Assembly (NCBI GenBank): GCA_022822625.1
Contig: JAJEAV010000084.1
Coordinates: forward strand, 1-34,042
Length of the DNA stretch: 34,042 nucleotides
Direction: 5' to 3'
Source of the DNA: Gammaproteobacteria bacterium
Lineage (GTDB): Bacteria > Pseudomonadota > Gammaproteobacteria > Arenicellales > Poriferihabitantaceae
The translations under genes were made by a program, and so were the position numbers. Shown here in pieces: positions 2,890 through 23,320 of the stretch (its first letter is position 1; every line of letters starts with the position of its first letter). Under the pieces are notes generated by a model. That model was not told where the DNA came from and did no database searches. It saw nothing but the letters and a program-made list of their open reading frames with translations.

Positions 2890-4263
2890 TTAGGGCGAAG
2901 TGTGTTTGCCGCCGTGAACAGATGGTTCGCTGGACCATTGCCGACGGAGGGTTTCCAGAGGTTCCAGCATGCTTTCCGGTAGTTCCAGCAAGTCAATGAG
3001 AACAGCAGTATCCAGTGCCTTGCGTACTTCATCACGATACGCTTCATTGGCAGGCAGAAAGGGTCTGGTCTCGAACTGAGTAAAAATTTTCCTGGCCAGT
3101 GTCAACTTGCTTTCCGGAAATCTGCGTGGATCAAGAACCATAAGTTCAGACAACTTGCTGATTGTCAGTATTGCTCGACCCTCCTGTTGTCGCGACCCAT
3201 ACCACCAGAAAGTCATCAGGCCAAGCGAGCAATTGGTCCAGAGGGCGATAAATTCTTCCCACTTGTCTTCATGTGGGCGAAAATTCGGCCATGCTCGGCC
3301 ACCGAGGACAGGGTCTGGCGTCAGACATGCCGATAGACTTTGCGAGTTCAGTCGAAAGTCGAGAGTAAAGTGTAGCCTTGATGCAGTTTGCCAGGCATCC
3401 AGAGCGCGTTTCTCGCAACCGGGACGCATCACTCCCATGCTGTCTGGTTCTACACGCAGGTATCGTTCGCGGTCCGCATCATGTCTCCAGAGGACAGGAT
3501 AGCTGGGAACGCCTTCCATGGCATGTATCCGGAAAGGTCCTCGAAAGGGTGGTTCGTCATCTTTTCCATTGCCGATGTCTCTGTGCAACAGGCCTCTATC
3601 GCCCAATTGTCCGAGAGGAGCGACAGGGATGGCATGACGGGAAGGATGTTGCGGCATTCGCAGTTCACCCTGGAGCAATGCAATCATCATATCGGCCAGT
3701 GCCGACTCGCGTAGACTTGTGCAGCCGCCTTCACCAAGCGGTGCCCGGATATAACTTCCGGATGTTTGCCCGCCGGCCCTGATATATCCCGCATTTGGCG
3801 AGGCAGGCAATCGCTTGATGATCCTGGCCGTTTCGGCAGCTTCCAGCATGCTGGACGGACGGCGGTGTAAATTGACAAAGAGTGCTTCGGAATCAGGAGT
3901 CTTGCTAGTTCTCTTCGTGGCTACAATCAACGTCTCGGCCATGCCGGTATCAGCAGAAAAGGCACGTTCATGGTTACCAATATTGGCTATTGTAACGACA
4001 GTAATGTTCTCGTATGCACCGGCAAGCAACTTCCGTGCAGGTTCCCATGAGGCCCCCTGTATCGCCGTTATGGGAAGAACAAGAGCGATAGTACCGCCAG
4101 GCTTGACCTTGGCGTGAGCAAGATCAACAAAATTGGAAGCAAGGCCGGCATTGCCATGGCCTGCGGGATGTTTTATGCCCTTACGGATATCCGCCAGACG
4201 ATCGGACATCAGGCGTTGCTCGTCTCTGGTTGTCCGAAAGCCGGCAAAGGAAGGGACCGGCAC
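2890..4263 (-). pseudogene. N6-adenine DNA methylase, C-terminal part (frameshifted)
   Basis: This is the second half of the methylase whose first half is 4209-5780. It carries the segment that follows the catalytic N-P-P-F motif: P-V-P-S-F-A-G-F, then D-R-L-A-D-I-R-K-G, then the F-V-D-L-A-H-A-K-V-K-P-G-G-T-I-A-L-V-L-P strand typical of N6 methylases. After residue 200 comes a long region with E-F-I-A-L-W-T-N-C-S-L-G-L, likely target recognition. The first codon here is an arbitrary GTG inside the original gene. There is no ribosome site and no gap, so it is unlikely to be made alone. The rest of the frame is clean, which argues for a recent mutation, a sequencing error, or programmed shifting. 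Confidence 0.8.
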
Positions 4264-5780
4264 TCGGCAGCTTCATGGTTGGTCGGTCGTGTGAATGGCG
4301 GGTTCATGATGACCAGATCAACCGACTCATGAGGGACTTCAATGTCTCCAACCTTGATATCGCCCTGCGCCCCGCTGGCTTGGACCTCACCGGTTGCGAA
4401 CAGCGATCGGCTCTTCACGGTCTCAATCAAGTCCAGCGAGCCTATGGAAACATCATGATACTTCTCATCCACATTCCCTGTTCCATAGGGCATCGTGTAG
4501 ACACGGGTATTGTCGAATACGATGGTCGGATGTACGCTGGAAAGCTGCGAAGCGCAAAGGTGCGCTGCCGCAGGCATAATATCTGCGGCAATAACAGAGT
4601 GCTCGATCATGTGCCTGTGGAGCTCGCTGTCGTCCCCGCCTGCATGTCGATATCGGGCAAGTATGGCCTGATAGCCAGCTGACAGAAGGGTGCCCGTGCC
4701 GCACGAAAAATCCGCAATCGTGAGATCGGGATAACTTTCCAGATTGTTCCAGTCTGCATCCAGACGGCTTACCGCCATTTCTGCCAGCAGTGCCGCGCTC
4801 GTTGGCAAGGTGTAGAACGTAGCCAGGAATTTCCGGTCGGCGATCAGGTTCTGGAACATTCTGCCCGAAAGATCATGCCGCGTAGTAACACCAAGCTCTG
4901 CAAGGCGTTCAGATGCTGAGGCTAGGATGTACAGGATACGATTGGCCGTTGCCGCCCGTATTGGCGCAAGAAGATCGGACGCAACCTTGAAAATCGGCCA
5001 GTAGTTGATGTCGTCCAATATCTTCCTCCATGTATCCAGAATCGCCATTCGGAAAGACCCGGCCGTGTCGTTCTGAAGCTGGGTGACCGAAGGAATGTCA
5101 TGGAAACCGGCAATGGTCGAATGGAAAGTCAGGGCATTGGCAATGATGGTCATTGCCATACGGTTTGTCTGTTCCCCTCCATGCTGGTTGAGAACGCGTC
5201 CCATCTCTCGTTCGGTATCCACAAAACCGAGATCAACAGTGTCCTGAACTGCTCTTGCTGCCACCCGGACGCCATCTTCCAGTATCAGGATGCCTTCATC
5301 GACCAGGCGCTGTGAAACCATCGCATGCTCTATGCACCGGACAATATCGTTGATGCCGCCATTGAGCCATCCTTTCCCGGGCCAGCGTTGTGGTGCTGAT
5401 GGGTCACCGGAAAAAATACAGTAGTCGAAATCTGCCTCCGAGATGCGTTCGACAAGATGAGACTGGTCGTGACGGAGAGAATCCGGAATTCGAACGGCAA
5501 TCGTCTGTTCTATGAGGTTTTCGGAGCCGAGAGGAACAAGACCGAGTCTGGCCTTTGCGTCATTCTCAACCGTAGAACCCGGCACATACTCGGTTTCCAC
5601 GACTACAGGCTGGGCGTTTGGCGGCAGAACAAGGATGTCCGGTCGCAAGCGTGGATGGTCACGGAAAACTCCGGTCTGCTCTACACCCAGACAATTTCTC
5701 CAGAGCGGGTGTTTGGTCCGAAGAATTTCCGCCAAATGTCCGTTGAACACGATTTCGCTGGTATTTGACATGCCAATCAT
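4209..5780 (-). pseudogene. N6-adenine DNA methylase, N-terminal part (frameshifted)
   Basis: About 500 residues ending just after the catalytic motif. The SAM-binding motif D-F-S-C-G-T-G-T-L is near residue 355 and the adenine-methylase motif N-P-P-F near residue 492. After that the frame runs into unrelated sequence. The next frame resumes the protein if one base is restored beside 4263-4264. The rebuilt protein would be about 970 residues, much longer than HsdM. Near the N terminus P47-D48-I-L-V and V-V-V-E62-T-E64 resemble the spacing of a PD-(D/E)xK nuclease, although the usual lysine is a glutamate. It could therefore be a degenerate single-chain restriction-modification enzyme, or a lone methylase. 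No specificity or restriction gene lies next to it. Confidence 0.8.
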
Positions 5781-6047: not shown

Positions 6048-8222
6048 TCAGTCTTTGCCCAATGCCATCAGGAATATGGTCGTGATGGTCTTGGCATCCA
6101 TAATTTCTCCTCGCCGGATCATGCTTTCAATTTTCTCGATTTCGAGCCAGTGAAGCTCCAGAATTTCATGTGCTTCGAGCGATTGTTTTCCAGCATGCAA
6201 ATGGCTTGCCTTATAGGCGTGCATGTATTCATCAGAATATCCGGGCGAAGTATAAAACGAACCAAGCCTCTCCCATTGATCAGCGCTATATCCAGTCTCC
6301 TCCCGGAGTTCCCGTCGGGCAGTCTCATCAGGTGTTTCAGGAAAATCAATGCCACCGGCCGGTAATTCCCAAATCCAGTCAAGTGTAGCCGGGCGATATT
6401 GCCGGAGCAGACAGACCCTGTTTTGCTCGTCAACGGCCGCAATTACGGCACTGCCGGGATGTCGAATAATCTCCATGGTTACCCATTCGGTATCTTCCTC
6501 ACCGGGCTTAAATGACTCCAGACCGAGACTCGCCACTCTGCCGCTATACAGGGTGCGCCGGAGCGGTTCTCTGGGAAAGTGGATCAGCGATGCCTCATAG
6601 TCGTGAGGTGCCTTGAAGCCCAGCAGGTTGAACAGAGTTGCTGCCACATTGGCCAGACCGCCTTCAAGCCCGCTTTGTAGGACATAAGCATGGTCATTGT
6701 TCCAATCAGCGATCACGAACGGCACAGGATTGAGGGAGTGGGAAGTCTTGGGTATGCGCTTGCCTTCACGTTCAGTGAACATCTCTTCGGCATTTCCATG
6801 ATCCGCAGTAAATACCAGAACTCCCTTGAGGGCTTCGACAGCTTCAAGCAAGCGCCCGAGACAGGCATCAACAGATTCCAGAGACTGAACCGTTGCCTCG
6901 ATATTGCCAGTATGTCCAACCATATCTCCATTGGCAAAGTTGATACGGCCAAAACGGAATTTCCCCGATTCCAATAGTTCGATGGTAGCGTCCGTGATTT
7001 CCCTGGACTTCATGTCGGGGGCCTGGTCAAATGGAAGATTGTCAGACGGGATTTCGACATACGTCTCAAGCGTCTCGTCGATATGGCCGGATCGATTACC
7101 GTTCCAGAAATAGGTAACATGCCCGAATTTCTGGGTTTCGCTAATCGCAAAACTGGAAATCTTTCTGGCGCACAGATATTCCCCCATGGTGTGCTCAATG
7201 ACTGGAGGTTGAACCAGATAATTTTGCGGTATCTTCAGGTCACCATCGTATTCGAGCATGCCGCAGAAGTAGATATCGGGAAAGTTTCCTCGGCAAAAGT
7301 GCTCGAATTCTGCGTCGCCAAGCGCAGACGAAATTTCAATTGCCCGGTCCCCCCGAAAATTGAACAGCACCACTGCATCGCCATTCTGCATCTTGCCAAC
7401 AGGCTGCCCGTTTTCCGTTACTACAAATGGGGTAAGATACTGGTCGGTAATCTCGGAGTCAGCCGCGTACTGCCTTTCTACTTCATTGACTGCATCGGTA
7501 ACCAGACGGCCGGTTTCGTCTACGCATCCATGGACATGTGCATTGAAGCCGCGCTGGACCATGTTCCAGTCGGCCTGGTAGCGATCCATGGTGATCTGCA
7601 TGCGCCCGCCGCCGCTTGCGATCCGATAGTTGGTATTGGGAGCCTGATTTATTCGCTGAAGTTTTGATTGAAGGATTTTGAGATACCGGGGTGATGAGCG
7701 AGGGTCTACATCACGTCCATCCAGCAGGGCATGAACGCATACTGACTGGATGCCTGCATCATGGCTTTTATCCAGAAGTTGAAGCAGATGACTGATGTTG
7801 GAGTGTACGTTGCCGTCAGAGACGAGTCCGATAAAATGTACAGTCCCACCGGCCAATCCCCGTTCTCGAATAGCTTTCCACACATCCGATTCAAACAGGG
7901 ATCCGGAATCAAGAGCAGAGTCTACAAGCTTTGCACCCTGATCAAAAATGCGTCCACCTCCTAAGGTGTTGTGTCCCACTTCGCTGTTGCCCATGTCCGA
8001 ATTCGAAGGCAAGCCCACCCACTCACCATGTGCATTGAGTCTGGTGCTTATCGAACTTGCAAGCAGTCGATCGATATTGGGTGTATAGGCCAGTGACAGG
8101 GCATTCGCGGCGCCGGGTTCTGCCAACCCGACACCATCGGCAATAACCAGTAGAACCGGACCGGGTCGCCCCTGGAAACTGATTAGTCGTTCAAGAATCA
8201 TGGTCATGCTCAGGTGTTCCAT
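6048..8222 (-). CDS. gpmI: Phosphoglycerate mutase (cofactor-independent)-Nudix hydrolase fusion
   Basis: One 724-residue frame with two complete enzymes. Residues 1 to about 545 are iPGM, which interconverts 3- and 2-phosphoglycerate in glycolysis. It has metal Asp29 in A-D-G, nucleophile Ser80 in M-G-N-S-E-V-G-H, L-L-D-G-R-D-V-D-P, N-F-R-G-D-R-A, D-M-V-G-H-T-G and T-A-D-H-G-N-A-E. Residues from about 552 form an ADP-ribose-pyrophosphatase-like Nudix domain with a perfect box (G-x5-E-x7-R-E-L-x-E-E-x-G-Y) after L-P-A-G-G. The linker is short and no stop or shift lies between them. iPGM alone is about 510 residues. The start overlaps rdgB by 13 bases; a second ATG lies five codons in. Linking these two activities in one chain is unusual, and its purpose is unknown. 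Confidence 0.93.
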   Translation of the reverse strand: MEHLSMTMILERLISFQGRPGPVLLVIADGVGLAEPGAANALSLAYTPNIDRLLASSISTRLNAHGEWVGLPSNSDMGNSEVGHNTLGGGRIFDQGAKLVDSALDSGSLFESDVWKAIRERGLAGGTVHFIGLVSDGNVHSNISHLLQLLDKSHDAGIQSVCVHALLDGRDVDPRSSPRYLKILQSKLQRINQAPNTNYRIASGGGRMQITMDRYQADWNMVQRGFNAHVHGCVDETGRLVTDAVNEVERQYAADSEITDQYLTPFVVTENGQPVGKMQNGDAVVLFNFRGDRAIEISSALGDAEFEHFCRGNFPDIYFCGMLEYDGDLKIPQNYLVQPPVIEHTMGEYLCARKISSFAISETQKFGHVTYFWNGNRSGHIDETLETYVEIPSDNLPFDQAPDMKSREITDATIELLESGKFRFGRINFANGDMVGHTGNIEATVQSLESVDACLGRLLEAVEALKGVLVFTADHGNAEEMFTEREGKRIPKTSHSLNPVPFVIADWNNDHAYVLQSGLEGGLANVAATLFNLLGFKAPHDYEASLIHFPREPLRRTLYSGRVASLGLESFKPGEEDTEWVTMEIIRHPGSAVIAAVDEQNRVCLLRQYRPATLDWIWELPAGGIDFPETPDETARRELREETGYSADQWERLGSFYTSPGYSDEYMHAYKASHLHAGKQSLEAHEILELHWLEIEKIESMIRRGEIMDAKTITTIFLMALGKD

Positions 8223-8848
8223 CCCGGAGAAGCAGTAAGGATATCGGTATGGTGGAGTGTTGCCTTGAATTGTTCAAGGGCCTTGGCACGGTGACTGATC
8301 CTGTTCTTGATTTCCGGCTTAAGCTGGGCAGCTGTGCACCGGTATTCGGGTAGATAAAACACCGGGTCATATCCAAATCCGTTTTCTCCTGAAGGATCTG
8401 CGGCAATTTCTCCTTCCCATGAATCTGAAAATATCAGCGGTTGATCGTCTTCAAAGTGCCGCACCACTGCAATCACGCAATGGAATCTTGCACCTCGGGA
8501 AGATCGGTCAATTCCATTCAGCTCATGGAGAAGTTTTCGAACATTCTGATGGTCGGTAGCATGAATGCCGGCATATCGGGCAGAATATACGCCGGGTGCT
8601 CCATCGAGATAATCAACCGACAACCCTGAATCATCCGCAATAGCCGGCAGGTTTGCATGTCGACTGGCAGCGAGGGCCTTGAGCAATGCGTTTTCTTCAA
8701 AAGTGGACCCCGTTTCTTCGGGTTCCGGAATGCCGAGTTCAGACATCGGTCGGATGAGGAATGGTGTGCATCCCAGGATTTGGGCGAATTCGCGAATTTT
8801 TCCTCGATTGCCGGAAGCAACAACAATTTCCATTGAGGATTGATTCAT
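8210..8848 (-). CDS. rdgB: dITP/XTP pyrophosphatase (RdgB/HAM1)
   Basis: 212 residues. Removes non-canonical purine triphosphates (dITP, XTP) from the nucleotide pool by hydrolysis to the monophosphate and PPi. Family marks are V-A-S-G-N-x-G-K near the N terminus, T-F-E-E-N-A-x-x-K-A, A-D-D-S-G-L with the catalytic Asp, P-G-V-Y-S-A-R-Y-A-G, G-F-G-Y-D-P-V-F and I-S-H-R-A-K-A-L. The last residues after H-R-A-K-A-L are longer than usual and overlap the next gene. It starts 9 bases after rph, matching the common proteobacterial rph-rdgB order, so the genes are probably one operon. Confidence 0.96.
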   Translation of the reverse strand: MNQSSMEIVVASGNRGKIREFAQILGCTPFLIRPMSELGIPEPEETGSTFEENALLKALAASRHANLPAIADDSGLSVDYLDGAPGVYSARYAGIHATDHQNVRKLLHELNGIDRSSRGARFHCVIAVVRHFEDDQPLIFSDSWEGEIAADPSGENGFGYDPVFYLPEYRCTAAQLKPEIKNRISHRAKALEQFKATLHHTDILTASPGWNT

Positions 8849-8857
8849 GGTCTGTTG

Positions 8858-9589
8858 TCAGATACTGTATGGTTGTTCAAGTACCTGTCGTTGATATTCA
8901 AGCAGTTTTTGACAAGCCGAGCTTGCCTGATCCAGCATGGTATCGACTTGCTCCTTGCTAAATGGGACCTTTTCAGCCGTACCCTGGATCTCGATAAAGT
9001 TCCCGCTGTTATCCATGACGATGTTCATGTCGGTATCGGCCTGGCTGTCTTCAGCATAATCCAGATCGGTGATGACAGCTCCCTTGTAGATGCCGACCGA
9101 GACCGAGGCGATCGCACAAAGCACCGGGTTTTCAGTAATCACCTCATCTTTCAGCATCCGGTTGACTGCGTCGACAACGGCAACATAGCCGCCGGTAATA
9201 GCCGCAGTTCGAGTTCCTCCATCTGCCTGTATCACGTCACAATCGACGGTAATTGTCCTTTCACCAAGCATCCTCATATTGACAGCGGCACGCAATGACC
9301 TACCGATCAGGCGTTGAATTTCAAGAGTGCGTCCGGTTTGCTTGCCGCGGGATGCCTCACGCATGGTCCGTTCACTGGTAGAGCGGGGGAGCAGGCCATA
9401 CTCGGCTGTCACCCATCCTCGCTTTGAGTTTCTGAGAAACGGCGGGACCCGGTTCTCAATCGTTGCATTACACAAGATACGCGTATCCCCAAATTCGATT
9501 AATACCGAACCTTCCGCATACCGGGTGTATCCTCGAGTAATGTTGATGGATCGTAGTTCATCGGGTTGACGGTTGCTGGGTCGGTTCAT
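8858..9589 (-). CDS. rph: Ribonuclease PH
   Basis: 243 residues, close to the usual 238. A phosphorolytic 3'-5' exonuclease that trims tRNA 3' ends. The sequence opens with R-P[14 protein letters not shown] and has [50 protein letters not shown] and D-L-D-Y-x-E-D-x-x-A-D-T-D-M-N, the last holding the metal-binding aspartates. Nothing looks damaged. It heads rdgB and the gpmI fusion and lies 66 bases downstream of the GNAT gene. Confidence 0.97.
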
Positions 9590-9655: not shown

Positions 9656-10180
9656 CTAGTGATTTTTCGTTATCTTCATCTCGTACACTGCAATACTGTG
9701 ATAGGCATTGAATTTCCAGCCAGCCTCGTCGAGTAACCCGCATTTCGTAAACCCCAGTTTTTCGTGCAGGCGAATTGATGCCGGATTGGGCAAGGTAATG
9801 ATTGCAAAGGCACGATGCAGGTCAGTGAGTCGTATCCGGTTGAATAGTTCACGGTAGAGTATTTCACCGATTCCGCGACGAAGCATGCCCTGTTTGATAT
9901 AGACCGTAGTTTCCGTGGATCGGCCATAGGCATTTTTTGGACGGAAAAACGTGTTATAGGTGAAGCCCGCAATCTCTCCTTCGATTTCAGCAATCAGTAG
10001 GTGATAGGGGCAATTTCCCTGATTGAAGTTGCCAGCCCATTGAATGCGCTTGTCTAGGCTCCACGGCTGGATATCAAAGTTGATCGAAGTGTGTTCGATA
10101 TACCAGTTGGCGATATCATTGATGGTCGGCACATGATCAATGGTTGCCGGCCTGATCAATGGTTCACGAGTGTCTTTCAA
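9656..10180 (-). CDS. GNAT N-acetyltransferase, phosphinothricin-acetyltransferase-like
   Basis: 174 residues with the GNAT fold. The N-terminal R-P-A-T-I-x-D-V-P-x-I-N-D-I and Y-I-E-H-T-S-I-N-F-D stretches and the tail L-P-N-P-A-S-I-R-L-H-E-K-L-G-F fit the Pat/YncA branch, which acetylates small amines such as methionine sulfoximine or phosphinothricin. The acetyl-CoA-binding loop reads R-R-G-I-G. Known relatives act on amino-acid analogues, but the substrate here cannot be read from sequence. Its start overlaps the stop of the agmatinase-family gene by 4 bases, so the two are translationally coupled. That makes a guanidino or amine substrate possible. Confidence 0.85.
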   Translation of the reverse strand: MKDTREPLIRPATIDHVPTINDIANWYIEHTSINFDIQPWSLDKRIQWAGNFNQGNCPYHLLIAEIEGEIAGFTYNTFFRPKNAYGRSTETTVYIKQGMLRRGIGEILYRELFNRIRLTDLHRAFAIITLPNPASIRLHEKLGFTKCGLLDEAGWKFNAYHSIAVYEMKITKNH

Positions 10181-11139
10181 GACGGGCGGCAGGCGATCAG
10201 GTTGATCATCTCGAAAACGATCGTGGCAGCAGCCAGTGAGGTCAATTCGGCATGATCGTAACTGGGACTGACTTCGACTACATCTCCCCCCACCAGGTTG
10301 ACGCCTGCGAGCCCTCTCAGGATATTCACGAGTTCCCGGGTCGTAAGTCCGGCAATTTCCGGGGTGCCCGTACCCGGCGCATGGGCAGGGTCAAGAACAT
10401 CAATGTCAATCGACAGGTAAAGCGGGCAATCACCGATTCGTTTGCGAATCCGGTCCGCTACATGATCCGGCCCGAACTTTTCCAATTCATCGCAATGGAT
10501 AACCTTGAATCCAAGCTCTTCATCATTCTTCAGATCTTCCGAACTGTAGAGGGGGCCACGGATACCGACATGCATGGATGAGTCATCCATGAACAATCCC
10601 TCTTCAGCAGCACGCCGAAAGGGTGTGCCGTGGGTATATGGTGCGCCAAAATAGGTATCCCATGTATCCAGATGCGCATCAAAGTGCACCAGGGCGACGG
10701 GACCGTTCAGACGTTGATTAATGGCCCGCAACAGTGGAAATGCAATCGTATGATCACCGCCCATGCAAATCAGGGATTCACATTGCCGGTGAACTTCCGT
10801 TGCCGCCTTTTCGATCTGATGGATCGCTTCGTTAATGTTGTAGGGATTGCAGGCCACGTCACCGGCATCTGCTACTTGCAGGGATTTGAACGGTTCGGTC
10901 TGGTAATTCGGATGAAAGTTGTAGCGAAGGTGGCGCGAAGCCTGGCGGATTGCGCCGGGGCCAAAACGTGCGCCAGGTCGATAGCTGGTACCGGAATCAA
11001 ACGGCACGCCCAGAATGGCAATATCGCAGGTCTCGACATCCCTGAGTTCGGGAAGTCTGCAAAATGTAGATGGGCCAGCATATCGTGGGACAACCGTTCC
11101 GCTTACCGGCTCTATGGGTTCTGGTTTATGATCGGTCAT
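10177..11139 (-). CDS. speB: Agmatinase/ureohydrolase family protein
   Basis: 320 residues. Binuclear-manganese ureohydrolase, releasing urea from a guanidino compound. All metal-site motifs are present: M-G-G-D-H-T, D-A-H-L-D-T-W-D and S-I-D-I-D-V-L-D-P, followed by P-G-T-G-T-P-E. The N-terminal G-V-P-F-D-S-G-T-S-Y-R-P-G-A-R-F-G-P motif is characteristic. Agmatinase (agmatine to putrescine) is the default call, but guanidinobutyrase, guanidinopropionase and guanidine hydrolase share these motifs. No arginine decarboxylase lies nearby to favour agmatine. It is first in the minus-strand operon and divergent from the formate dehydrogenase locus. Confidence 0.88.
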   Translation of the reverse strand: MTDHKPEPIEPVSGTVVPRYAGPSTFCRLPELRDVETCDIAILGVPFDSGTSYRPGARFGPGAIRQASRHLRYNFHPNYQTEPFKSLQVADAGDVACNPYNINEAIHQIEKAATEVHRQCESLICMGGDHTIAFPLLRAINQRLNGPVALVHFDAHLDTWDTYFGAPYTHGTPFRRAAEEGLFMDDSSMHVGIRGPLYSSEDLKNDEELGFKVIHCDELEKFGPDHVADRIRKRIGDCPLYLSIDIDVLDPAHAPGTGTPEIAGLTTRELVNILRGLAGVNLVGGDVVEVSPSYDHAELTSLAAATIVFEMINLIACRPS

Positions 11140-19538: not shown

Positions 19539-20081
19539 ATGGATCGTTTCCCTCAATCAATCTCGGACAGCATGAAGAAAAGCGGTGCCATGACCACTTG
19601 CTCCATGGTGCAGTTTGATCATGGTAACTGGGAGGCGGCGGTATTTTTTGAAGTGGGCGGTAAAGAGTGCAGCAAAGACCGGCGTATTCTTAAGCGTTCC
19701 CAGTCCCCTTTTGATGTTGTTATTGAAGCGGACTTGATTGAACATACGTCTGCATGTATTTACATATTGCGTTTCGAGGTCATGACAGATCCTGAAAATC
19801 CTCTGGTTGGAGAGGTGTTGCTTGCTCCGGGTCTTGGCGGCACTCATTTTGATGTACTGGACAATCTGACCAGGCAGGAGAACTTGAGGCTCTTCTTTGG
19901 TGATGGTGCCTATCGAGTCATGTTTTCTCAACAGATTGGGCTGATGGATCAAGAGCGGGCAGGGATAAATGAGTTACTGAATAGTGCTGTTAGCCATGAT
20001 GCATTAATCAGGGTGACTGGGCGTTATGATGCGTCTTGTGCCATGAGTGAAATAGTGGAGCATTATGCCTACCGAAAATAA
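19539..20081 (+). CDS. Uncharacterised protein downstream of fdhC
   Basis: 180 residues, acidic, no signal peptide or membrane helix, so probably cytoplasmic. I do not recognise a family. The pattern is alternating strands and helices: W-E-A-A-V-F-F-E-V, then F-D-V-V-I-E-A-D-L-I-E, then Y-I-L-R-F-E-V-M-T-D, then G-E-V-L-L-A-P-G-L-G-G-T-H-F-D-V-L-D-N-L. That could be a small alpha/beta domain. It starts after the fdhC terminator and overlaps the ankyrin gene by 17 bases. It therefore heads a second transcription unit of four genes behind formate dehydrogenase. Several in-frame ATG codons make the exact start uncertain. Confidence 0.75.
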   Translation: MDRFPQSISDSMKKSGAMTTCSMVQFDHGNWEAAVFFEVGGKECSKDRRILKRSQSPFDVVIEADLIEHTSACIYILRFEVMTDPENPLVGEVLLAPGLGGTHFDVLDNLTRQENLRLFFGDGAYRVMFSQQIGLMDQERAGINELLNSAVSHDALIRVTGRYDASCAMSEIVEHYAYRK

Positions 20082-20832
20082 CGTTCCGGGATTCATGCGC
20101 AAGGTTGTGCTGGCATTGTTGGTCTATTGCCTTCAGGTGGCAAACGGATATTCGTCGGACAGTTTTTCCGAGGCAGTGTACAGGAATGATGTCACCGGCA
20201 TGGAATCTTTTCTTGTTGCGTCCGCGTCAATTCCAAATATTGATGTACGAGGTGCCAACGGCAAGACCGCACTAATGATTGCGGCCAGAGCGGGTGATGT
20301 CGATCTGGTTATGGAACTCCTGAAACGGGGGGCCGATCCGAATACCGTAAATGTTAATGGAGGTACTCCGCTGATGTTTGCGGCAATCAGTGGAAATGAT
20401 GTCATCGTTGAAGAACTTCTGGTTCGAGGTGCAACAGTAAATGCGACCGGCAGCAATGGCTGGAATGCATTGATGGTTGCGAGTGCGAAAGGCTTTCCGG
20501 ATACTGTAAAGAGATTGCTTGATTCCGGTGCCGATATCAATGCGGCAGATGTCTATCTCTGGACCCCCCTGCATCGTGCTGCCTATGAAAATCGTATATT
20601 GACGGTAGAGGCTCTGCTTCGTCACGAGGGAGTCGAGGTAGACTTTCAGGATGACCATGGGGCAACTCCACTGCATCTTGCGGCGGTGAGGGGGCATCAG
20701 GAAGTCGTGCAGAAATTGCTTGAGGCAGGAGCTGATCCGTTGTTACAGGATTCGCATGGACGAGTTGCGGAAGACTATGCCAGAGGTGGTGGGCATGAAT
20801 CATTAGCGCTCCATCTGGATGCCCGGACCTGA
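20065..20832 (+). CDS. Exported ankyrin-repeat protein
   Basis: 255 residues. After about ten residues comes M-R-K-V-V-L-A-L-L-V-Y, a Sec-type signal peptide, then five ankyrin repeats of about 33 residues. Each has the T/A-L-M-x-A-A or T-P-L-H-x-A-A turn and the L-L-x-x-G-A-D-x-N end, and a capping repeat closes the array. Ankyrin stacks are protein-binding scaffolds, so the likely partner is another periplasmic protein. GGAG five bases before ATG 20065 supports that start; ATG 20095 would begin directly at the signal peptide. Three bases separate it from the next gene. Similar small exported ankyrin proteins occur beside catalase and redox genes in other bacteria. Confidence 0.85.
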   Translation: MPTENNVPGFMRKVVLALLVYCLQVANGYSSDSFSEAVYRNDVTGMESFLVASASIPNIDVRGANGKTALMIAARAGDVDLVMELLKRGADPNTVNVNGGTPLMFAAISGNDVIVEELLVRGATVNATGSNGWNALMVASAKGFPDTVKRLLDSGADINAADVYLWTPLHRAAYENRILTVEALLRHEGVEVDFQDDHGATPLHLAAVRGHQEVVQKLLEAGADPLLQDSHGRVAEDYARGGGHESLALHLDART

Positions 20833-22547: not shown

Positions 22548-22898
22548 CTAATCAAGAGTGACCAAAGAGGTTTTTCCAAATTTGGGTTCCTGAACAGTTA
22601 CGAAATTGGAGTGGATTATGTTTCGGAATGCCTTGTCAATCAGTGTCCAATCGACAAGGTCAACCTTGAATGGAAGATCCGACTCTTCAAATTCCTCCGA
22701 CAGTGCAGAGGTGGTATCCAGTGACAGAGGCTCATCTCCCAGAATGGCAAGGTCCAGATCGGAATACTTCTTCGCCGACCAGGCTGCGCGCGATCCAAAA
22801 GCCAGGACTGTACGGTCAGGCACGTGATTCCGGAGGATATCCCGTACGATGTCCAAATATTCGGGTTGAAGATCAAGTTGCGGAGATGTCCCGCTCAT
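22548..22898 (-). CDS. mntA: MNT-type nucleotidyltransferase antitoxin
   Basis: 116 residues, the minimal nucleotidyltransferase fold. G35-S36-R then S-D47-L-D49-L is the G-S-x10-D-x-D active site that holds Mg-ATP. In HEPN/MNT systems this enzyme adds AMP units to the HEPN toxin and blocks its RNase activity. The start overlaps the HEPN stop by 4 bases, the standard gene order. The chain is complete, with no frameshift. A small stem (CCTCT with AGAGG) just behind the stop might terminate transcription. The alternative reading, a substrate-binding nucleotidyltransferase unrelated to toxin control, is less likely given its partner. Confidence 0.85.
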   Translation of the reverse strand: MSGTSPQLDLQPEYLDIVRDILRNHVPDRTVLAFGSRAAWSAKKYSDLDLAILGDEPLSLDTTSALSEEFEESDLPFKVDLVDWTLIDKAFRNIIHSNFVTVQEPKFGKTSLVTLD

Positions 22899-23320
22899 GC
22901 CAAGCGTTCTCGCAACCTGTCACGCAGATAGGCCGCCTCTTCGAGGAAACACGGGATTTCATTGACTACTTCCAGTGCAACATCTTCGTTGCAGGTATGA
23001 CTTGTTCTTGCACGCATTTCACGATACTTGCGCCAATCCGGCCACTCACCTAGCAGCAGACCCTGCTCGTTTCCCGTGCGGATCAAGTCCTGAAAGGTCG
23101 TCTCGTCAAACTGTTCAGGATTTGCTGATACATATTCTAGGTAGCGCCTTAAAATTCTGTGTCCCTGTTCATGAGTGAACTCGAAGCGTTGGATCAGTCC
23201 ATCTCGGATCTGTGTGTCGGTCGTGTCCGATTGATACCTCACAAACCCTTCTTCAAGGCGCTGAATAGCCCGCTCGAAAGGGCTGATTCCGGGTTGCCTG
23301 TCTGACACTTGGTTCATCAT
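22895..23320 (-). CDS. hepT: HEPN-domain toxin (HI0074-like)
   Basis: 141 residues, all helical, of the nucleotidyltransferase-substrate-binding HEPN type. Key residues are R103-A-R-T-S-H108, giving the R-x4-H RNase motif. In the best-studied HepT proteins the next-but-one residue is a tyrosine (R-x4-H-x-Y) that receives AMP from the MNT partner; here it is Cys110 (TGC). This may mean a changed mode of control, or an inactive system. It is first in the two-gene unit. Candidate TATAAT boxes lie 21 to 42 bases before its ATG. Confidence 0.85.
   Translation of the reverse strand: MMNQVSDRQPGISPFERAIQRLEEGFVRYQSDTTDTQIRDGLIQRFEFTHEQGHRILRRYLEYVSANPEQFDETTFQDLIRTGNEQGLLLGEWPDWRKYREMRARTSHTCNEDVALEVVNEIPCFLEEAAYLRDRLRERLA

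Follow-up and report, generated by a model that had tools for sequence, protein, structure and literature searches.

Whether two enzymes that are normally separate proteins, a cofactor-independent phosphoglycerate mutase (iPGM) and a Nudix hydrolase, are truly joined in one polypeptide, how such a protein could have arisen and whether the join couples two activities are the questions raised by a single gene in the window, the stretch of 34,042 nucleotides analysed here. The sequence-only reading had described a single open frame at 6048-8222; the coordinates are right and the strand, which it left unstated, is the minus one, where the ORF listing gives 724 codons with zero stops, the plus strand being closed by stops throughout. 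The first ATG of this frame overlaps rdgB. Since the alignments of the relatives begin instead at ATG 8201, the start was placed at M8 (ATG 8201-8199), just beyond the rdgB stop at 8212-8210, and this is probably the true start. The features of the locus are collected in Table 1.

Table 1. Position of the fused gene, its parts and its operon neighbours in the window.
Feature	Position	Strand	Remarks
Fused iPGM-Nudix ORF	6048..8222	-	724 aa if counted from the first ATG; 717 aa from the probable conserved start at 8201
Cofactor-independent phosphoglycerate mutase part	6579..8201	-	PF06415 + PF01676; closest among solved structures to iPGMs of the Leishmania/Trypanosoma type
Junction, short linker HFPREPLRR	6555..6581	-	Between the iPGM end and the first Nudix strand; no internal start with a ribosome-binding site is conserved
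Nudix hydrolase part	6051..6578	-	ADP-ribose-pyrophosphatase-like, perfect Nudix box
rdgB (XTP/dITP diphosphatase)	8210..8848	-	Upstream operon neighbour; its stop adjoins the fusion start
rph (ribonuclease PH)	8858..9589	-	Conserved operon neighbour
GNAT acetyltransferase	9656..10180	-	Neighbour kept within the family
Agmatinase family protein	10177..11139	-	Neighbour kept within the family

The N-terminal half is a complete iPGM with all catalytic motifs, as had been claimed from the sequence. Pfam places Metalloenzyme at residues 22-537 and iPGM_N at residues 100-326, both far over their gathering scores, and the NCBIfam iPGM equivalog pgm_bpd_ind (TIGR01307) matches at full length, its 421.9 bits exceeding the cut-off of 330.65. 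The motifs DGV, GNSEVGH, DGRD, FRGDRA, SETQKFGH, NGDMVGH, TADHGN and TSH are present, and the catalytic serine and two metal-site motifs are identical in the alignment to those of 1ejj and of the Leishmania iPGM and are kept across the fused proteins. The roles of these residues in binding metal and substrate, and that of the catalytic serine, we take to be those established for iPGM structures. One iPGM was found in the window genome, and the search for the cofactor-dependent class (dPGM, TIGR01258) gave zero matches over the cut-off in all 24 genomes of the window's family (f1). The fused protein, a predicted phosphoglycerate mutase, is the only recognisable one in the window genome.

In the C-terminal half the Pfam NUDIX model (PF00293) covers residues 588-701 with 68.1 bits, far over its gathering score. 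The Nudix box, GGIDFPETPDETARRELREETGY, is an exact fit to Gx5Ex7REUxEExGU, hence the earlier description of the box as perfect was accurate, and its glutamates are kept in 20 of the 20 fused proteins. The closest solved relatives are ADP-ribose pyrophosphatases (E 6e-27), the methanol dehydrogenase activator (8zr8) among them, and the M. tuberculosis ADPRase (1mk1) is a more distant one. An SPG motif is found 15 residues past the box, with SPG, TPG or APG in the relatives; Dunn et al. are said to have reported in 1999 that ADP-ribose pyrophosphatases are marked by a proline some 15-16 residues beyond the box. Against the curated Nudix subfamily models of NCBIfam the window domain stays below every cut-off, scoring 56.1 bits as a domain alone against the 79.55 of TIGR00052 (YffH/AdpP) and, as the Nudix part, 69.4 bits against the 169 of the NudE equivalog (NF008736). 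Since the scores fall under all these cut-offs, an ADP-ribose-like substrate is predicted only by inference; the possibility of ADP-ribose voiced by the sequence-only reading is favoured by the solved relatives and the SPG motif and not by any subfamily assignment. The TIGR00052 cut-off is passed by none of the proteins of the fused genomes, and a separate protein passing it is encoded in G012 and G018, two of the four family genomes that have no fused Nudix domain, which hints, from two genomes only, that one ADP-ribose pyrophosphatase replaced another.

The AlphaFold model of the single chain, built with 20 sequences, is of moderate quality (pLDDT 80.7, pTM 0.69), with both domain cores confident and the N-terminal arm of the Nudix domain poorly placed. 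ADP-ribose pyrophosphatases usually swap this arm within a dimer, and a single-chain model cannot show the swap. Because the model is moderate and much of the arm falls below a pLDDT of 50, neither the interdomain arrangement nor any dimer is established by it.

The junction lies where it had been located, near residue 545. The iPGM closes at ...YEASLIHF and the Nudix domain opens at ...REPLRRTLYSGRV, at about residues 545-556, leaving a linker of about 10 residues. GTG or TTG codons near this point in some genomes could be taken as signs that a separate Nudix product is also made, by an internal translation start or else by proteolysis; against this, no in-frame start accompanied by a ribosome-binding site is conserved near the junction among the 20 fused genes and the window has no ATG there, and we consider such a product very improbable.

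The relatives of the fusion were compared by sequence. The same uninterrupted gene is present in 20 of the 24 genomes of family f1, in seven genera and with 57-90% identity to the window protein, one of the 20 having its 5' part cut by a contig end. The same two-domain order, which the sequence-only reading had proposed to look for in other genomes, is thus common to about 20 species of a family of uncultured, mostly marine bacteria, and its description as a true fusion of normally separate enzymes holds. Four of the fused genes can also be found in public records, where the source is named as a gammaproteobacterial MAG and in one case as Arenicellales. In the remaining four family genomes (G012, G016 and G018 of genus g7, and G014) the iPGM ends at the junction with no Nudix behind it. 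In pairs within the window's genus, with the halves taken separately, Nei-Gojobori dN/dS was 0.08-0.12 in the mutase and 0.07-0.12 in the Nudix domain; with values of about 0.1 in each, both halves are constrained, by purifying selection of equal strength. It had been argued that relatives with two separate genes would betray an assembly or sequencing artefact, and genomes of a sister family do encode iPGM and Nudix as two genes. However, the genomes of family f1, mostly MAGs, were assembled separately and 20 of them carry the same uninterrupted junction flanked on both sides by a coding-type substitution pattern, so the chance that an error joined the two genes is negligible, and the family-wide alignment rules it out. 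From these alignments, the predicted two-domain fusion is real.

The surroundings of the gene indicate where its two parts were before the join. An rph-rdgB-[PGM]-Nudix operon recurs through the order, rph and rdgB being constant at the loci examined. The slot behind rdgB is occupied in families f2, f3 (in part) and f5 by gpmA, the cofactor-dependent PGM (367 bits, above the cut-off), which is non-homologous to iPGM, and the Nudix gene follows directly; in G035 the gpmA stop and the Nudix start overlap. In the sister family f10 the slot holds an iPGM followed by a separate, co-directional Nudix gene after spacers of 8-36 nt, and in one of its genomes, G040, the two are parted by a single in-frame TAA plus 36 nt. 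The slot is empty (rdgB-Nudix) in G042, G081 and G034, where the iPGM is located elsewhere, and rph-rdgB-PGM without an adjacent Nudix gene occurs in most of f3 (with gpmA), in genus g7, in G014 and in G054. In family f8 the iPGM is convergent with rdgB. Within genus g23 of f2, G080 has a dPGM in the operon and an iPGM elsewhere, and in G042 and G081 the dPGM is gone from the slot. G080, the pair G042/G081 and f8 (loci L210-L221, with G034) would represent stages of PGM replacement, and the order holds two or more distinct lineages of iPGM.

Both the iPGM tree and the rph+rdgB tree group the fused genomes. In the Nudix tree the fused domains form one clade (SH-aLRT 99); its backbone is poorly resolved, so the orthology of the fused Nudix domains with those of the sister family rests mainly on synteny. 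The iPGMs of f1, f10 and f12 form one clade (support 100) that stands beside Clostridia and Chloroflexota sequences and far from the ordinary gammaproteobacterial iPGM, and the second iPGM clade of the order (f8, g23) is separate. This grouping with Clostridia and Chloroflexota fits a lateral acquisition of iPGM with replacement of gpmA in place, and PGM classes are known to displace each other in bacteria (PMC2964296). Since gpmA turns up in several families across the rph+rdgB tree, whose deepest branches are weak, the gpmA state can be inferred to be ancestral. G014 nests among the fused genomes in the iPGM and rph+rdgB trees, and hence its lack of a Nudix domain is a secondary loss. The iPGM tree puts genus g7 next to the clade of fused genomes, the rph+rdgB tree nearer to f10; the genus either lost the fusion or never had one.

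Taking into account that: (i) both Nudix without PGM and PGM without Nudix are found, so that operon proximity alone could explain the join, and (ii) rdgB is an equally constant partner, we favour a bifunctional enzyme formed by fusion of operon neighbours. In this model, a non-homologous iPGM acquired laterally would have taken over the slot of gpmA in an ancestral rph-rdgB-gpmA-Nudix operon, prior to any fusion. The ancestor of most of f1 would then have lost the stop codon and the short spacer that parted the two genes, which produced one chain. Surviving relatives show most of the steps, namely the gpmA slot, the iPGM slot, neighbouring genes parted by one stop codon, the fusion and its secondary loss. 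That the gene encodes a genuine PGM with an ADP-ribose-type Nudix domain, born of a swap of gpmA for iPGM and a subsequent fusion, is in our judgement highly probable from sequence comparison.

Some further observations concern the rest of the window. In relatives L114, L115, L033 and L034 a GatB/YqeY-like gene lies within about 90-520 nt after the fusion, and for this reason about 3 kb seem to be inserted in the window, where two overlapping minus-strand ORFs of 457 and 523 aa (2890-5780) stand between the two genes. Judging from an NPPF-type motif they may encode a DNA methyltransferase, perhaps with a frameshift; Pfam gave no match on these ORFs. An ankyrin-repeat protein with a hydrophobic N-terminus is encoded at 20065-20832 (+), and a pair formed by a nucleotidyltransferase and an NTase substrate-binding protein, in an MNT/HEPN-like arrangement, at 22548-23320 (-).

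Outside the order, no match running through the Nudix domain was found in 369 class-level and 398 phylum-level genomes (about 740, the samples overlapping somewhat), in a search that would register the iPGM part alone if the Nudix domain joined to it were more distantly related. In plasmid records no match covered 80% of the query and none extended through the Nudix domain, and a scan of genome contigs returned, past f1, only relatives that are iPGM alone. Several candidates were discarded: in G071, whose open frame of 745 had suggested a fusion of independent origin, a stop codon separates the genes; the long open frames that surround iPGM at L134 and L142, elsewhere in the class, have no match to the Nudix query, and Nudix relatives outside the order mostly do not sit beside a PGM. 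In two further members of the class (L192 of G242, and contig C6 of G354) a Nudix relative and an ordinary iPGM are convergent and about 1 kb apart.

In the fused protein the two active sites would act independently, the PGM site converting 3-phosphoglycerate to 2-phosphoglycerate and the Nudix site splitting ADP-ribose, or an ADP-linked compound like it, into AMP and a sugar phosphate. The fusion would fix an equal dosage of both enzymes, and the normally monomeric iPGM may become a dimer through the N-terminal arm of the Nudix domain. Metabolic channelling is not implied by such a join. The Nudix domain might nevertheless serve the PGM step, either by clearing a nucleotide-linked metabolite that is damaged or acts as an inhibitor, or by sensing an ADP-linked signal, and would for this reason have been kept beside PGM and finally fused to it. 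The Nudix gene does stand directly behind PGM whichever class fills the slot, gpmA in f2, f3 and f5 and the unrelated iPGM in f10 and f1, and the fusion is kept over most of f1. The loci with rph-rdgB-Nudix and no PGM, and those with a PGM and no adjacent Nudix gene, speak against it and rule out a strict dependence of Nudix on PGM, and rdgB is a neighbour as constant as PGM. We regard such a service as rather unlikely, and with it a link between glycolysis and ADP-ribose or ADP-sugar turnover regardless of PGM class. The tie between glycolysis and nucleotide-sugar turnover put forward by the sequence-only reading is not demonstrated by these comparisons; the operon neighbourhood explains the origin of the fusion, and each gene occurs alone in relatives.

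The join could also be a chance read-through between neighbours, near-neutral and without coupling, after which both enzymes just kept working. This is compatible with the explanation we prefer, of which it denies only a benefit of the join, and we give it roughly even odds. The closely spaced co-directional genes of the sister family, one pair of them parted by a single in-frame stop, agree with it, as does the fact that either gene can be lost separately, G014 having shed Nudix and kept PGM. Nevertheless, the fusion has remained uninterrupted in 20 species of seven genera with only one nested loss seen, which speaks against it. The bifunctional enzyme arising from operon neighbours, which we favour, leaves a question of its own: is there a role for an ADP-ribose-type Nudix enzyme at the PGM step?

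Each half can be compared with its own family. The mutase is of the kinetoplastid/clostridial-like GpmI type (TIGR01307), with the same full-length domain above cut-off and the same metal and substrate motifs; ordinary iPGMs end where the linker starts, whereas the window protein adds a C-terminal Nudix domain. That domain matches the ADP-ribose pyrophosphatases (NudF/AdpP type, 8zr8, 1mk1) over nearly its whole length, through the N-terminal strands, the box and SPG, but differs from the NudF/AdpP type in being covalently placed behind an iPGM and in falling under the TIGR00052 and NudE cut-offs. It is the combination that seems new: no iPGM-Nudix fusion was found among open-access papers, in line with the earlier statement that no established example was known, and the fusion, which is family-wide and belongs to central carbon metabolism, appears to be an undescribed combination of two known enzyme families and a clean case for how operon neighbours turn into bifunctional enzymes. 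A survey of PGM in 702 genomes mentions one fused PGM, the dPGM-dehydrogenase of Akkermansia muciniphila (PMC2964296), likewise a fused PGM, in which the PGM class and the partner differ. The nearest published parallel is NadM-Nudix, which joins an NMN adenylyltransferase and a Nudix ADP-ribose pyrophosphatase (PMC3680494) and where the same kind of hydrolase is likewise attached to a metabolic enzyme; NadM, however, serves NAD recycling, of which ADP-ribose is a by-product, and PGM does not.
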